Part shown: positions 48,059-62,278 of the stretch, in pieces
Layout of the letters: every line of letters begins with the position of its first letter
Position numbering within the stretch: position 1 is the first letter of the stretch
Origin: Thiohalospira halophila DSM 15071
GTDB taxonomy: Bacteria > Pseudomonadota > Gammaproteobacteria > Thiohalospirales > Thiohalospiraceae
Length of the DNA stretch: 64,000 nt
Reading direction: 5' to 3'
Assembly (NCBI RefSeq): GCF_900112605.1
Contig: NZ_FOMJ01000001.1
Location: 644,577-708,576, forward strand
Position numbers and translations under genes: made by a program
The notes under the pieces: model-generated
The model's input: only the letters and a program-made list of their open reading frames with translations
Databases searched by the model: none
Told to the model about the DNA's origin: nothing

Positions 48059-49462
48059 CTACAGCTCCCTCACGTCGACGAAGTGGCCGAAGACCGCCGC
48101 GGCGGCGGCCATGGCCGGGCTCACCAGGTGGGTCCGCCCCCCCTGGCCCTGCCGGCCCTCGAAATTGCGGTTGGAGGTGGAGGCGCAGCGCTCCCCCGGC
48201 TCCAGCCGATCGGCATTCATGGCCAGGCACATGGAGCAGCCCGGGGCGCGCCACTCGAAGCCGGCCTCGGTGAAGATCCGGTCCAGCCCCTCGGCCTCCG
48301 CCTGCTGCTTCACCAGCCCGGAGCCGGGGACCACCATGGCCTGGGTGACGGAGTCGGCCACCCGCCGGCCGCGCACCACCTCGGCGGCGGCACGCAGGTC
48401 CTCGATGCGGGAGTTGGTGCAGGAGCCGATGAAGATCCGGTCCGGGCGGATGGCGGTGATCGGCGTACCGGGCTCCAGCGCCATGTATTCCAGGGCGCGC
48501 TGCCAGCCGTCGCGCTGAACGGCGTCGGCGGCGTCGGCCGGATCGGGCACCACCCCGTCGACACCGGCGACCATCTCCGGCGAGGTCCCCCAGGAGACCT
48601 GGGGCTCGATGGCGGCAGCATCAATGCGCACCACCCGATCGAACTCGGCATCCGGGTCGCTGTGCAGGTCCCGCCAGGCGGCCACCGCCTGGTCCCACTG
48701 CTCGCCGGCGGGCGCATAGGGCCGATCGCGGAAGTAGTCGATGGTCTTGTCGTCCACCGCCACCATGCCGGCCCGGGCGCCGGCCTCGATGGCCATGTTG
48801 CAGACGGTCATCCGGCCCTCCACGGAGAGGTCCTGGATGGCCTCGCCCGCGAACTCGATGGCCGAGCCGGTCCCGCCCGCAGTACCGATGGTGCCGATGA
48901 TGTGGAGGACGATGTCCTTGGCGGTGACGCCCGGGCCCACGTGGCCCTCCACCCGCACCTGCATGTTCTTCGACTTGGACTGCCACAGGCACTGGGTGGC
49001 CAGGACATGCTCCACCTCGGAGGTGCCGATACCGTGGGCCAGGCAGCCGAAGGCGCCGTGAGTGGAGGTGTGGGAGTCGCCGCAGACCACGGTCATGCCG
49101 GGGAGCGTGGCGCCCTCCTCCGGACCGATAACGTGGACGATGCCCTGACGGATATCGTCCATCCGGAATTCGGTGATGCCGTATTCGGCGCAGTTGTCAT
49201 CCAGCGTCTCCACCTGGATCCGCGAGGTGGCGTCGGTGATTCCCTGCGCCCGGTCGGTAGTGGGGACGTTGTGGTCCGGGGTCGCCAGGACACTCTCCGC
49301 GTGCCACGGCCGCCGCCCCGCCAGGCGCAGACCCTCGAAGGCCTGGGGCGAGGTGACCTCGTGGACCAGGTGGCGGTCGATATAGAGAAGCGCGGTGCCA
49401 TCCGGGTCGGTGGCCACCACGTGGGCGTCCCAGAGCTTGTCGTAGAGGGTCTTGCCGGCCAT
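48059..49462 (-). CDS. leuC: LeuC, 3-isopropylmalate dehydratase large subunit
   Basis: Large aconitase-family subunit of isopropylmalate isomerase, holding a [4Fe-4S] cluster. It has 467 residues. The cluster cysteines lie in IGSCTNSR and [19 protein letters not shown] is also intact. The ATG at 49462 gives [14 protein letters not shown], the standard N terminus; the longer frame is not needed. It is the first gene of the leuC-leuD-leuB-asd-usg unit. The 70 bp to the downstream-facing polysaccharide gene hold nothing I recognise. Confidence 0.97.
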
Positions 49463-49532: not shown

Positions 49533-51980
49533 TCAGGCGGCGTCACGCCAGGCGGTAAGGCGGGCCACCCCGGGGGGCAGCTCCTCGCCCCCGGACCCCG
49601 TCCGTCGCCCTCCGGAGTTCCCTTCGAACCAGCGCCGCTGGAAGGCGGCCGCAAAGTAGACCGACGCCACCAGGGCCACCAGGGCACGCCCGGGCGTGGC
49701 GTGGATCTGGACCGACAGCAGCAGCAGCGCCCCGAGACTGCCACTCACGCCGAGTATGGCGACCACCCAGACTGCCGCCCACAGGCGATGGCGGGCCATC
49801 AGGACGGCATCGCGGAGGAGCACGCCCACCAGCAGCAGGAAGAGGACCAGGCCCACGAGGCCGAAGTCCAGGGCAATGCTCCCGTAGGCGGACTGGAGAT
49901 GCACGTAGCCCTCTTCCGCCGTGAAGGGGCCCGCCTCGGCAGGACCCAGCCAGGGGGCCCGGGATACGGCCTCGACCGTGCGCTCCCAGATGGTCAGTCG
50001 CTCGGCCACCGCCGGGTAGAGTTCGGTAGCCGCGGCCTTCTCGCCCTCGATGTGGAGGCCGGCGGCGGCCACGGAGTTGGCCAGGCCGCCGCTGCCATCC
50101 CCTTCCGACGCCCCTACCACCGACCAGGTGGCAACGACCACTCCCACGGCCAGGGCGGTGCCCCCGGCCAGGCCCATCCAGTGGCGCCGGTTCAGGCCGT
50201 AGAGGACGGCAGCCACCGCCATGGTCAGGACGCCCGCCAGGGCCGCCAGCCACGCGGTGGTGTAGCCGGTGCCGGCCAGCACCACCAGGGCACTGACAGT
50301 CACGCCGCCGAAGACCACCAGCATCGCCGTCGGCCGCCAGCCGCAGCCCAGCCGCTGGAAGGCGGAGACCATCGCCCCCAGCAGCGCCACGGCAAGCAGC
50401 GCGGCCAGGGAGCCGATGACGGCGGGGGACCCCCACTCCAGGGGATTGGCGAGGTCACCCACCATGAGCGCCGCCCAGTCGGCCTGGAGGGCGAAGGCCG
50501 CCGACCAGCCGGCTACCAGGACCAGGAAGAGCGGCAGCCAGTGCCAGCGCGCCCCGGCCAGCCACCAGCCCACCGGCAGGGCGGCGAGGCCGCTGATCCA
50601 GAGGTACTCGCTCCACACCAGCTGCGAGCTCTCCCCGAAGAGGCCACCGCGCAGGGTGATGTAGACCGACAGGCCCAGCACCAGCCAGGCCACCGGAAGC
50701 CGCCGCAGGTCCGCGGCAAACGTGGGCAGACTGGCGAGGGTGGCTGCGGCCAGGGCGGCGAAACCCACCTCCAGCCCGGTCTCGTGGAAGGGCAGGGAGA
50801 AGAGCATGACGTAGAGACCGCCCAGCGCGAGCCAGCGCCGCCAGCCGGTGACCGGCGGGACGGCGCACGAGGTCTCGGCACCGTCGGCACAGCGCACCGG
50901 CCAGGTCATGGGGGCGGAGCCCGACCACTGGTGGAGCCGACGCAGGGCGCGGGCCGTCCGCCAGGCGCGGCGGATGAAGACCAGATGGCCGACGACCAGG
51001 CCCAGGAGGCCGGCGTAGAGGATTGGATCGGGCACCCCGACCACCGATCCCATGATCCCGATCCCGCCGAGCACCACGGTAAGCAGCAGCAGCAGCGCAC
51101 TGGTCTCGCCCACGGTATAACCGGCGCGCAGGAAGATGTGGTGGAGGTGCTCGCGGTCGGCGCGAAACGGGCTCTGGTCCTTGAGGACCCGGCGGATCAT
51201 GAGGCTCAGGGTATCCACCGCCGGGAGCGCCAGGACCCATGCCATGCCGGCCGGCGACACTGCCCGCCCCGGCGCCATGAGAACCTCCAGAGCCAGCCAG
51301 CCGATGGCCAGCCCCAGCGCCATGCTCCCGGCATCCCCGAGGAAGATGGAGGCCCGCGGCCGTCCCGGGTGGCGCATGTTGAACAGCAGAAAGCCGACCA
51401 CCGCGGCGGCCAGGGTGGCCGCCACCGCCGTGGTCACCGGGAGGCCGGAAAGATGCGCGGCCACCACCAGCCAGCCCAGCATGGCCAGGGAGATGCCGCC
51501 GGCCAGGCCGTCCGCCCCGTCCATCATGTTCAGGGCATTGATGAAACCGACCATGGCGAAGAGCGTCAGGGGAATGGCCCAGGCGGAGAGTTCCAGCCGC
51601 TCGCCGGGGATGAAGACGCCGAGATCACTGATGACCAGGCCACCCCACCCCACTACCAGCGCCGCCGCGACGAACTGCAGCATCAGCTTGGTGGTGCTGC
51701 GCATATCCTGGGCATCATCCACCAGCCCGGTAACCAGCAGCAGACCGAGGCCGGCGAACAGGGCGGCGTAATCCCGCAACGGCCCGTCCACCAGGAGCAC
51801 CCCGCCGGCGAAGGCAATGACCACCGCCAGCCCCCCGATGAGCGGCACCGGCTCCGCATGCTTCTTGCGTCCCCCGGGGCGGTCCACCAGACCCAGCTCC
51901 CGCGCGGGCTCATCCAGGGCGAGGATGAGCGCCACCGCGAGGGCCAGGCTGATCAGTGGTGGAATGATGTAGGCGTCCAC
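49533..51980 (-). CDS. WecA-type glycosyltransferase fused to an O-antigen-ligase-like membrane domain
   Basis: The 815-residue, wholly membrane-embedded protein has two parts. Residues ~1-330 are a WecA/MraY-family sugar-phosphate transferase with the DDAQD motif near residue 90, NMMDGADGL near 153, FLGDAGSM near 220 and HLHHIF near 278, which load a HexNAc-phosphate on undecaprenyl phosphate. A short soluble linker (~335-385) leads to a second polytopic half that ends in an extracytoplasmic loop ([15 protein letters not shown]) and [21 protein letters not shown], the layout of WaaL/Wzy-type enzymes. Start and final transfer steps of a glycan in one chain is unusual. The ATG at 51980 is preceded by AAGGA. 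ElyC-like and galE genes lie next to it. Confidence 0.82.
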
Positions 51981-52162
51981 GAGTCCTTCCTATGCGCTGA
52001 ACCGCCCCCGGGCGGCCCCCCTCCAGGAGACACGCCCGACTCCCTCCGAGGGTTCCATGGGTCCGGCCATTACTGACATTCGTTAATGGAATGATACGGG
52101 AGGTCGAAGATTCGCACGAGGACCGGAACTGACCGGCGGGAAAGGAGGACGGCGAATCGGGC

Positions 52163-52915
52163 TCAATCGAGATCCCCGCGCAGCCAGGACCAGGCCAGCC
52201 CGAGATATTCGTAGAAGGCGCGCTCGCTGGTATGCAGCCCACGGGCCTGGGGGCGCAGATAGCGTGCCCGCCAGCGATCCGCCTCCCGCGGGGCCCGATA
52301 GCGGGTGGGCGCGGCCACGGGGTCCAGTCCGGCTCCCTGGAAAAGGGCCATGGCCCGGGGCATGTGCGAGGCCGAGGTCACCAGCACCAGGCGCCGGCTG
52401 TCCAGTTCCGCCGCCGCCCGGACCGCCTCGTCCCGGGTATTCACCGTTCCCGGCAGAAGCACCAGGTCCTCCGCCGCGACTCCCAGCGCCCGGGCCACTG
52501 CCCCGCTGGTAACCGCGCTGGGTGCCGGCTCACCGCCTCCGGACAGGACCAGACGACTCCCCGGCAGGGCACGCTGCAGCCGTATCCCCTCCACCAGGCG
52601 GGCCGTAGCGGTGGCCGGGAGCTGCGCGGTCACCGGCAGCCCCGGCTCGGGATCGTGGCCCGCCCCCAGGACCATGACGTACTCGATACCGGCCAATCGC
52701 TCGGTCTCAGTTACCGGCGGATAGGCGCGCTCCAGCGGCGCCACCAGCCACCCGGAAACGGGCCGGGAGCCCAGCGCCAGCAGCAGAGCCACCGCACCCA
52801 CCATTACCAGCGCACCCGCCCGGCCCCGGCCGCGCCAGGCCAGGAACGCCCCGACCAGCCCCAGCAGGGCTACCAGGGAGACCGGTAGCAGAAAGGATGC
52901 AACGAACTGGGCCAT
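52163..52915 (-). CDS. elyC: ElyC/SanA-like YdcF (DUF218) family membrane protein
   Basis: The 250-residue protein has two N-terminal membrane segments (LLPVSLVALLGLVGAFLAW and GALVMVGAVALLLALG) and a periplasmic DUF218 domain with VMVLGAGHD, the R-L-V-E-G-I stretch, LVLSGGG, and VTSASHMPRAMALFQ. This architecture matches ElyC, an E. coli factor needed for peptidoglycan synthesis and lipid carrier use at low temperature. Its proximity to an undecaprenyl-phosphate-using fusion gene supports a lipid-carrier role. The ATG at 52915 has GGGAGGGG upstream, and a 20-bp palindrome precedes that. Confidence 0.86.
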   Translation of the reverse strand: MAQFVASFLLPVSLVALLGLVGAFLAWRGRGRAGALVMVGAVALLLALGSRPVSGWLVAPLERAYPPVTETERLAGIEYVMVLGAGHDPEPGLPVTAQLPATATARLVEGIRLQRALPGSRLVLSGGGEPAPSAVTSGAVARALGVAAEDLVLLPGTVNTRDEAVRAAAELDSRRLVLVTSASHMPRAMALFQGAGLDPVAAPTRYRAPREADRWRARYLRPQARGLHTSERAFYEYLGLAWSWLRGDLD

Positions 52916-52948: not shown

Positions 52949-53116
52949 TCCCACGTCCCCGCCCGCCCCTTGCACCATATCTGGCCATATCACGCCGTTT
53001 TCGGCAGCCGGCAGGCCACCACCGGACGGTGAATGAGCGAACGCACCCTCGCCCCCTCCCCGCCCCATCCGCGCTCTCCGATACTCGGCCCATTCCCCAA
53101 CCACCCGGAGGCAATC

Positions 53117-54184
53117 GTGACCATCCTCGTTACCGGCGGTACCGGCTACATCGGCTCCCACACCTGCGTGGAACTGATGGAGGCAGGGCACGACGTGGTG
53201 GTAGTGGACAACTTCAGCAACTCCCACCGGGAGGTGGCCGGTCGCGTGGAGCAGATCACGGGCCACCCCCTGCCGGTGTTCGAGCTGGACCTACGTAACC
53301 GTGACGCCCTCACCGCCCTCTTCTCCGCCCACCGCATCGACGCCGTCATCCACTTCGCCGGCCTCAAGGCGGTGGGGGAATCGGTCGCGATGCCGCTGAC
53401 CTATTTCGATGCCAACATCGGCTCCACCCTGGTCCTCGCCGAGGTCATGGCGGAGTTCGGCGTCAAGAATCTGGTCTTCTCCTCCTCGGCCACCGTCTAC
53501 GGCGACCCCGACGAGCTCCCCATTCCGGAGACCGCGCCGCTGAAGCGGCCCACCAACCCCTACGGCCGCTCCAAGCTCTTCATCGAGGAGAGCCTGCGCG
53601 ATCTGCGCGTGGCCGACCCCGACTGGCGGGTGGGGCTGCTGCGCTACTTCAATCCGGTCGGCGCCCATCCCAGCGGCCTCATCGGCGAGGACCCCCTGGG
53701 GATGCCCAACAACCTCATGCCCATCGTCGCGGCCACCGCCGTGGGCCGGCGGGAGTCGGTAAGCGTCTTCGGAGATGACTACCCTACCGCCGACGGCACC
53801 GGGGTCCGCGACTACATCCACGTGGTCGACCTCGCCCGCGCCCACGTCGCCGCCCTGGACTACCTCCGCAACCAACCCCGCGGCGAGGAGCTGACGGTGA
53901 ACCTGGGTACCGGCCGCGGCTACTCGGTGCTGGAGGTCATTCGCGCCTTCGAGACGGCCAGCGGCCGGCCCGTCCCCTGCACCATGGCCGAGCGCCGTCC
54001 GGGGGATGTTGCCGCCTGCTACGCCGATCCCGGCCTGGCCCACCGGCTCCTGGGCTGGCGTGCGGAATTCGGACTGGACCGGATGTGCGAGGACGTATGG
54101 CGCTGGCAGTCGCAGCATCCCGACGGCCTGCAGCGCGTCCAGGAAGCGACCTCGGAGCAGCCGCTATCGGCGGTCTCGGCCTAG
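53117..54184 (+). CDS. galE: GalE, UDP-glucose 4-epimerase
   Basis: Interconverts UDP-glucose and UDP-galactose for surface glycans. The 355-residue protein is a short-chain dehydrogenase-type enzyme with the NAD loop TGGTGYIGSH at its N terminus, the active-site Ser in FSSSATVYG and the Y-x3-K in YGRSKLFIEE, followed by GVRDYIHVVDLARAHVAA. The GTG at 53117 has CGGAGG five bases upstream and removes a Pro-rich false extension. It is divergent from elyC and near the WecA-ligase fusion, so a shared role in a surface polysaccharide is plausible. Confidence 0.95.
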   Translation: MTILVTGGTGYIGSHTCVELMEAGHDVVVVDNFSNSHREVAGRVEQITGHPLPVFELDLRNRDALTALFSAHRIDAVIHFAGLKAVGESVAMPLTYFDANIGSTLVLAEVMAEFGVKNLVFSSSATVYGDPDELPIPETAPLKRPTNPYGRSKLFIEESLRDLRVADPDWRVGLLRYFNPVGAHPSGLIGEDPLGMPNNLMPIVAATAVGRRESVSVFGDDYPTADGTGVRDYIHVVDLARAHVAALDYLRNQPRGEELTVNLGTGRGYSVLEVIRAFETASGRPVPCTMAERRPGDVAACYADPGLAHRLLGWRAEFGLDRMCEDVWRWQSQHPDGLQRVQEATSEQPLSAVSA

Positions 54185-54252: not shown

Positions 54253-55014
54253 CTAGCCGCGGCGGCGCAGGACCCAGATCTCCAGCAGGGACCAGTCCTC
54301 ACCGGGGTAGTTCTCCTGCTCCAGCTCGGACATGCGGCGATGGCGCGAGGCCATGCTGCCGACGAAGTCCAGCTTCTCCAGCAGCGCCCGCTTGGTCTCG
54401 TCGGTCTTTTCCAGAGCGAAGGGGTTCAGGAAGTTCACCAGCATGTAGCCCTCGCCCTTGCCCCGGGCGAAGGCGTCCACCAGCCAGTTCACCGTCTCCG
54501 CGTCGAGGTAGACCAGGGAGGCGGTGGAGATGACCACGTCGGCGTTCTCCATGGCCGAGTCCACCGCCTGGCGATCCTCCGCCGAGGGGGCGTTGAGGTC
54601 GGAGACGATGGCCTCGTCAAACAGACCGCAGGACTGGCCGTAGGCCATGGCGTTGCCGGAGATGTCGATGCCGGTGGTATGCGCCGGGAAGCGGCGGTCG
54701 GCATCGACCCGCTGGCAGGCCTGCTCGTCGCGCCAGTTGGCGCGGATGGCCTGGTAGTCCATGCCGTTGAGCGTGGCCATGGTGGTATTGCCGAAGCAGG
54801 CGCAGAGATCGACGAAGTTGACGGGGCTGCCGTCCGCCGTCTTCTCCTTCACCCAGGGGAGGATGAGGCGGTCGAAGGTCTGGCGGTTGAAGTCGTCGGA
54901 GACGTACTGCAGCTCGTCCAGGATCCGCTCCTTGAACGGCACCGGCGTCTCGGCGACGTAGATGTCATCGAAGTGCTGCTTCTTTTCGTCGGTCTTGACC
55001 TGCGACTGGGTCAT
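54253..55014 (-). CDS. class I SAM-dependent methyltransferase of unknown substrate
   Basis: The 253-residue protein has a Rossmann methyltransferase fold: motif I VDLCACFGNTT near residue 67, an acidic TTGIDISGNAMAYG stretch as motif II, then NADVVISTASLVYLD and a GYMLVNFLNPF strand. Motif I is unusual, with Cys-Ala-Cys in place of the Gly-x-Gly usually seen. I do not recognise the subfamily; two-cysteine motif and the Asp/Glu-rich N terminus with Gln and Lys set it apart from neighbours. It is a single-gene unit, with its own terminator, between galE and truD. The ATG at 55014 has AGAGAGCG upstream; a TTG at 55038 is a possible alternative. Confidence 0.75.
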   Translation of the reverse strand: MTQSQVKTDEKKQHFDDIYVAETPVPFKERILDELQYVSDDFNRQTFDRLILPWVKEKTADGSPVNFVDLCACFGNTTMATLNGMDYQAIRANWRDEQACQRVDADRRFPAHTTGIDISGNAMAYGQSCGLFDEAIVSDLNAPSAEDRQAVDSAMENADVVISTASLVYLDAETVNWLVDAFARGKGEGYMLVNFLNPFALEKTDETKRALLEKLDFVGSMASRHRRMSELEQENYPGEDWSLLEIWVLRRRG

Positions 55015-61880: not shown

Positions 61881-62278
61881 TCGTGCTGGATACCCACGCC
61901 CTGCTGTGGTGGGTCAACGGCACTCCGCGGCTCTCGCAACCGGCACTCGAGGCCATCGAGCAGGAGTTGCAGGCGGATGACGGCGAGATCCTGATCCCGG
62001 CCATCTCGGCCTGGGAGATCGCGCTGCTGGTGGAGAAGGGGCGGCTCGCCCTCTCCATGAATACCGATGACTGGCTGGAGACGGTGGACGAGATCGAGGG
62101 GATCCGCTTCGCGCCCCTGGATGCCGCGACGGCCGTGGAAGCGACCCGACTCCCGGGGGAATTCCACAAGGACCCGGCTGACCGGATGATCGTGGCACTG
62201 GCCCGGCGCTTCAATGCGGTCCTGGTTACGGCGGATGAGAAGATCACCGCCTATCGATACGTCCGTACCGTCTGGTAG
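61877..62278 (+). CDS. PIN-domain toxin, VapC-like
   Basis: PIN toxins are magnesium-dependent ribonucleases, often cutting tRNA or rRNA. The 133-residue protein begins MIVLDTHALLWWV with metal ligand Asp5, has Glu47 in SAWEIALL, and the two late acidic ligands in HKDPADRMIVA and TADEKI. The TTG start overlaps the antitoxin stop by 4 bp, so production of toxin depends on antitoxin translation. The 'Phd antitoxin plus PIN toxin' combination is a known type II arrangement. Confidence 0.9.

Follow-up and report, generated by a model that had tools for sequence, protein, structure and literature searches.

A WecA-type initiating transferase fused to an O-antigen-ligase-like domain lacking conserved catalytic residues

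Results

In the 64,000-nucleotide stretch of the Thiohalospira halophila DSM 15071 genome that we analyzed (hereafter, the window), we identified a single gene that joins a WecA-type phosphoglycosyl transferase, very likely an active enzyme initiating glycan assembly, to a complete protein of the O-antigen-ligase family. The fusion recurs at full length in eight other genomes, and in all nine proteins the ligase-like half lacks the residues equivalent to the catalytic His338 and the essential Arg215 of Escherichia coli WaaL. Since these two residues are absent, the C-terminal half most likely no longer transfers glycan, and our preferred reading, which we hold somewhat above even, is that an active initiator is tethered to a non-catalytic WaaL-fold module with a scaffolding, docking, or feedback role.

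One gene encodes both halves

Reading of the open frames demonstrated one uninterrupted 815-codon frame that fills positions 49533-51980 on the minus strand, running from 51980 to 49533, with a GTG start codon at 51980, a TGA stop codon at 49535-49533, and a product of 815 aa. A strong ribosome-binding site, AGGAAGGA, is located 3 bases upstream of this GTG, and G+C by codon position is coding-like across both halves of the gene. The uninterrupted 815-residue frame described in the first-pass annotation was thus exact in its coordinates, with only the minus strand omitted. Alignment and composition place a linker after the WecA half, whose end is rich in Arg and probably lies in the cytoplasm. 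The features of this region are as follows:

49533..51980, minus strand: fusion gene, WecA-type phosphoglycosyl transferase plus O-antigen-ligase-like domain, 815 aa (open frame; both Pfam matches above cut-off; architecture in 8 other genomes)
51984..51991, minus strand: ribosome-binding site AGGAAGGA (sequence read)
50931..51980, minus strand: WecA/MraY half, residues 1-350 (PF00953, E 5.4e-37; TIGR02380; invariant Asp/His motifs)
51285-51764, minus strand: Glycos_transf_4 match, residues 73-232 (PF00953)
50841..50930, minus strand: linker, residues 351-380, Pro/Ala/Ser-rich (alignment and composition)
49611..50840, minus strand: O-antigen-ligase-like half, residues 381-790 (hhalign to 28 stand-alone proteins; fold match 7tpg on a low-confidence model)
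49836..50300, minus strand: Wzy_C match, residues 561-715 (PF04932, E 4.9e-9, 36.6 bits, cut-off 31.7)
50259..50261, minus strand: codon of T574, position of WaaL Arg215, lost (alignment column)
49998..50000, minus strand: codon of R661, position of WaaL Arg288, kept (alignment column)
49893..49895, minus strand: codon of Q696, position of the WaaL catalytic His338, lost (alignment column and spacing of 11 to Gly707)
52163..52915, minus strand: ElyC-like protein (DUF218), upstream neighbour (PF02698, E 7e-25; PRK10494 155 bits, below the 205-bit cut-off)
53033-54184: galE-like gene, divergent
about 48059-49462: leuC, downstream of the fusion and named from the sequence, with leuD- and leuB-family genes next

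The N-terminal half very probably initiates glycan assembly

Pfam searches of the protein returned both Glycos_transf_4 and Wzy_C above their cut-offs, which bears out the first-pass placing of WecA/MraY motifs in the first ~330 residues and of a ligase-like domain in the second half. The Glycos_transf_4 match scores 127.7 bits, against a cut-off of 27, and the DD, NxxxMxDGxDG, FxGD, and HxHH motifs are all kept, with D88, D89, D154, D157, D216, H278, H280, and H281 invariant in all nine full-length fusions and a total of 15 invariant Asp, His, or Lys residues in this half. The fusion therefore has the same domain as WecA (TIGR02380/PF00953) and all of its conserved Asp and His motifs. The NCBIfam ECA_wecA model, TIGR02380, gives the N-terminal half 223 bits over residues 15-348, below its cut-off of 326.05 bits, and so we name this half WecA-type and not WecA, the sugar specificity of the fusion not being fixed by this match. 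Within this family, the window genome contains two PF00953 proteins, the fusion and a 361-aa protein that is probably MraY, judging from its size and weak similarity. Based on the invariant motifs, and since the only other PF00953 protein in the genome is MraY-like, we consider it very likely that the N-terminal half is active and initiates glycan assembly.

A 2024 summary table enters polytopic phosphoglycosyl transferases as "PGT only", as opposed to monotopic enzymes with accessory domains (PMC10942596), whereas here a second polytopic domain of ~430 residues is fused to a polytopic transferase. Monotopic enzymes with extra domains, i.e., Bi-PGTs and Lg-PGTs such as WbaP, likewise combine an initiating transferase with an additional domain, which in Lg-PGTs is of uncharacterised function, but their transferase superfamily is unrelated and their added domain is not a ligase-family protein (PMC10942596).

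The C-terminal half belongs to the WaaL/Wzy_C family

The Wzy_C match (PF04932) listed above, 36.6 bits against a gathering cut-off of 31.7 with the whole protein, rises to 37.8 bits when the C-terminal half is scanned alone. In a whole-genome scan, 6 of the 9 full-length fusions pass this cut-off and 3 fall below it; the fusion of genome G212 is likewise below the cut-off when scanned as a whole protein. We compared a profile built from window residues 366-815 and the matching parts of the eight relatives with one built from 28 stand-alone proteins, namely E. coli WaaL and 27 Wzy_C proteins encoded in these genomes, and hhalign aligned the two with Prob 99.2 and E 6e-20 over 387 columns; the homology is therefore not confined to the loop. 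Two structure models were predicted from a five-row alignment, with pLDDT of 52-57, and the fold is used as support only: the best fold match of the C-half model was WaaL, 7tpg (Foldseek probability 0.89; VIA-align Z 9.7 over 324 residues; pLDDT only 57), with RodA and FtsW, which share their fold with WaaL, among the next rows. A PDB sequence search with the C-terminal half alone gave no match. The C-terminal half, as judged by profile alignment, is a complete O-antigen-ligase-family protein, homologous along its full length to a family that also contains PglL/PglS and MagA, so that the lack of any ligase or polymerase match, which the first-pass annotation had named as a refutation, did not come about. 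It differs from that family in being joined to an initiating enzyme, in carrying a lineage-specific loop segment, and in the residues described below.

Catalytic residues of the ligase family are lost in all nine full-length fusions

E. coli WaaL needs R215, R288, and H338 for its ligase function, and these residues are conserved in PglL (PMC3643930); His338 has been proposed to act as the catalytic base and likened to Asp262 of RodA (PMC10449877). Work on PglS employs the H324A variant as a control without activity (PMC12800693). For MagA, a Wzy_C polymerase, function is abolished by R290A and by H323A and severely impaired by G308A (PMC3485256).

Examination of these positions in one alignment of the 28 stand-alone proteins and the nine full-length fusions demonstrated that only one of the three WaaL residues is retained. 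The R288 column contains Arg in 28 of 28 stand-alone proteins and in 9 of 9 fusions (R661 in the window). The R215 column contains Arg in 27 of 28 stand-alone proteins and in none of the nine fusions (T, T, T, T, A, A, Q, Q, Q; T574 in the window), and the H338 column contains His in 27 of 28 stand-alone proteins and, again, in none of the fusions (Q, N, Q, Q, K, G, Q, R, R; Q696 in the window). Fisher's exact test gives 8e-8 for each of these two contrasts, with sequences that are related and not independent. In WaaL the spacing from the catalytic His to the conserved Gly349 is 11 residues, and the window has the same spacing from Gln696 to Gly707, so that the loss at H338 does not rest on the aligner alone, and the sequence HLQSAY in the window takes the place of the canonical HNxYL, with Gln at the His position. 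The positions of P303, G306, and G349 are kept in all nine fusions. The R265 column, Arg in 25 of 28 stand-alone proteins, is aligned in no fusion, with four fusions having an Arg one position off. The C-terminal half of the nine full-length fusions contains no invariant Asp, Glu, His, Lys, or Cys. We considered His694 of the window as a shifted catalytic His and rejected it, as the other fusions do not conserve a His at that position.

One stand-alone Wzy_C protein (genome G410, L119) has Lys at the R215 position and Phe at the H338 position; no other stand-alone member of the panel differs at both positions.

In these alignments, structural residues persist and catalytic ones are lost, which is the pattern of a pseudoenzyme. 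In the K57 and K62 types, natural MagA homologues carry Asp where the His would be (PMC3485256), showing that the active site is somewhat plastic and that residue loss is not proof of inactivity.

Canonical ligase-family enzymes are present in the same genomes

In the window genome, two Wzy_C proteins stand alone, and each retains the canonical residues of the R215, R288, and H338 columns; the genome also encodes two Wzz-family proteins, and at least one canonical Wzy_C protein above the cut-off is present in each of the eight other genomes with a full-length fusion. The first-pass annotation had suggested a compact pathway, with one polypeptide both initiating and ligating or O-glycosylating; this proposal was not supported, given the absence of the catalytic His and one essential Arg from all nine fusions and the two canonical Wzy_C proteins encoded elsewhere in the genome. 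The same annotation linked the fusion with the ElyC-like protein and galE beside it, and both genes are indeed present in the window, but they are not a conserved context. For example, we found Wzz genes next to the fusion in G212, G418, and G420, NusG/RfaH-like genes in G212 and G420, and genes for an NAD-dependent sugar epimerase in G420, a mannose-1-phosphate guanylyltransferase in G407, and a UDP-sugar dehydrogenase in G414. Co-occurrence with Wzz was uninformative as a link to the fusion, since most genomes with a stand-alone WecA also have Wzz, leaving only the adjacency in the three genomes named.

An alternative, which we judge unlikely, is that the C-terminal half is still active, as a ligase, polymerase, or O-oligosaccharyltransferase whose chemistry has changed, and that one protein both primes and transfers. 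In its favour, the half has the sequence of a complete ligase-family protein and, on a low-confidence model, the fold, the R288 equivalent and the loop Gly/Pro residues are kept in all nine fusions, the loop segment is constrained, and full-length fusions are found next to Wzz, RfaH-like, and nucleotide-sugar genes; against this, R215 and H338 are gone in every full-length fusion, the window also lacks the R265 column residue, and no substitute acidic or His residue is invariant. In addition, canonical enzymes are present in every genome with a full-length fusion, and the shortened homologues described below drop the loop and keep the rest.

Other observations were made in these regions. In G414 (L133, 1719-2933 and 7204-8400), two similar-looking Wzy_C-type proteins are encoded a few kilobases apart beside the fusion, apparently a duplicated polymerase/ligase gene. 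In the window, a 131-aa ORF at 61883-62278 on the plus strand, between CTP synthase and tilS, resembles by eye a PIN-domain toxin, and a 253-aa ORF at 54253-55014 on the minus strand, between galE and truD, has coding-like codon-position G+C; a slightly longer reading of this second ORF gave no Pfam match.

The fusion recurs as a single clade with full-length and shortened forms

A search for the same architecture identified full-length fusions of 770-840 aa in 8 other genomes (G212, G413, G381, G388, G407, G418, G414, and G420) and shortened fusions of 666-701 aa, five genes in four genomes (G427, G424, G422 twice, and G426), the recurrence that the first-pass annotation had named as support. 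The fusion is rare in broad samples: among 369 genomes sampled across the class, two have a fusion-length match (the window and G212, 796 aa), and only the window matches at fusion length, with E <= 1e-110, among 398 genomes sampled across the phylum. The genomes listed above come from a search of 54 genomes of the order to which G212 belongs, where ten further genomes matched with stand-alone WecA-sized frames only and an eleventh match, in G396, has an internal stop codon. The other searched members of the window genome's own order, which is small and different from that of G212, do not have the fusion. Public MAG records with the label Spiribacter or Ectothiorhodospiraceae also contain four of the shortened genes. 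A rough-type LPS has been reported for Spiribacter salinus (PMC5923411).

In a 57-row tree of the WecA half, all 14 fused sequences form one group with support of 99/96, values that are rough as the bootstrap is not fully settled, and the shortened fusions nest inside this clade beside full-length ones. The fusion thus has a single origin in our sample, with later loss of the Wzy_C core in one lineage. None of the four shortened forms scanned matches Wzy_C, the core being deleted or unrecognisable in the Spiribacter lineage; these forms are without the loop, and ~300 polytopic residues still match the fused C-half profile (hhalign, E 1e-24 over 295 columns).

Several long WecA-like proteins proved not to be fusions of this kind. 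The frames in G081 (663 aa) and G070 (623 aa) have no Wzy_C. WecA-like proteins of ~555 aa in genomes of the window's family were considered as degenerate fusions and rejected, as hhalign detects no relation between their extension and the ligase half (Prob 0.6 and 2.9); these are 552-565-aa proteins with an unrelated polytopic C-terminal extension, at L003 1036-2703 and L008 1036-2709, and in L003 the gene adjoins an ORF resembling by eye a CpsD-like tyrosine kinase. In a Spiribacter-type MAG (L023, 3379-5073), the shortened fusion lies ~700 bases from an ORF that resembles by eye an exosortase-CAAX protease fusion.

The C-terminal half is constrained in full-length fusions

In the full-length pair tested, G414/G420, the C-terminal half is under purifying selection, with dN/dS of ~0.29 compared to 0.26 for the N-terminal half; in two shortened pairs, the values for the C- and N-terminal halves are 0.32 vs. 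0.19 and 0.66 vs. 0.29. These ratios are rough, dS being 0.7-1.5 overall and 1.3-1.5 in G414/G420. A loop segment, PxQAxxLYxGGExxxA...R..W, is common to the full-length fusions, its PxQAxxLYxGGExxxA part lying ahead of the retained Arg, with L642, G646, and A651 invariant, and invariant Trp, Gly, and Arg residues are present in the C-terminal half.

These data bear on the proposal that the C-terminal half is a functionless, decaying remnant, carried along since the attached WecA half is needed, which we consider unlikely. The loss of catalytic residues, the missing Wzy_C core of the Spiribacter lineage, the faster change of the C-terminal half in one shortened pair (0.66), and its lower conservation (mean identity 34%, vs. 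50% for the N-terminal half) would all be expected of such a remnant, but the open frame and roughly 430 residues are retained at full length across several genera, the C-half ratio of the full-length pair is low, Trp, Gly, and Arg are invariant, and even the shortened forms retain their ~300 polytopic residues. Constraint in the full-length forms together with decay in one lineage would fit a non-catalytic role that can be further reduced. An assembly or frame error joining two adjacent genes, which the first-pass annotation had held up as a possible refutation, is rejected, since the same single frame recurs in 12 other genomes (8 full-length, 4 shortened) with one origin in the tree, and codon-position G+C is coding-like through both halves; a chance frame is likewise excluded.

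Discussion

We propose, with slightly more confidence than doubt, that these genes encode an active WecA-type primer tethered to a non-catalytic WaaL-fold module that serves in scaffolding, docking, or feedback. The N-terminal half, given its conserved motifs, would start Und-PP-linked glycans on the cytoplasmic face of the membrane, and the WaaL-fold membrane domain would be a pseudo-ligase permanently tethered to this initiator, with separate canonical Wzy_C enzymes presumably carrying out polymerisation and ligation. On the periplasmic side, the C-terminal half may bind Und-PP or its glycan-linked form, and the retained Arg (R661) fits such a contact with Und-PP. It may dock the initiator to the flippase, polymerase, or Wzz machinery, or may instead feed the level of product back to the initiator. 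A more specific and distinctly tentative version is that a WaaL-fold domain turned non-catalytic module senses or holds periplasmic Und-PP-glycan, so that a single polypeptide links the initial step in the cytoplasm to late ones in the periplasm.

Each half is of a known family, and neither their combination nor the consistent loss of catalytic residues was found in the literature we searched; finding no description of a WecA-ligase fusion there is not proof that none exists. The fusion also serves as a warning for annotation, in that domain searches would label it a bifunctional WecA/O-antigen ligase, a label that the conserved losses speak against. How competing glycan pathways share Und-P, and whether the early and late steps of these pathways are physically coupled, are open questions. 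A natural initiator joined to a ligase fold that appears to be without its active site would allow control or scaffolding of the first step by the fold of a late step to be tested.
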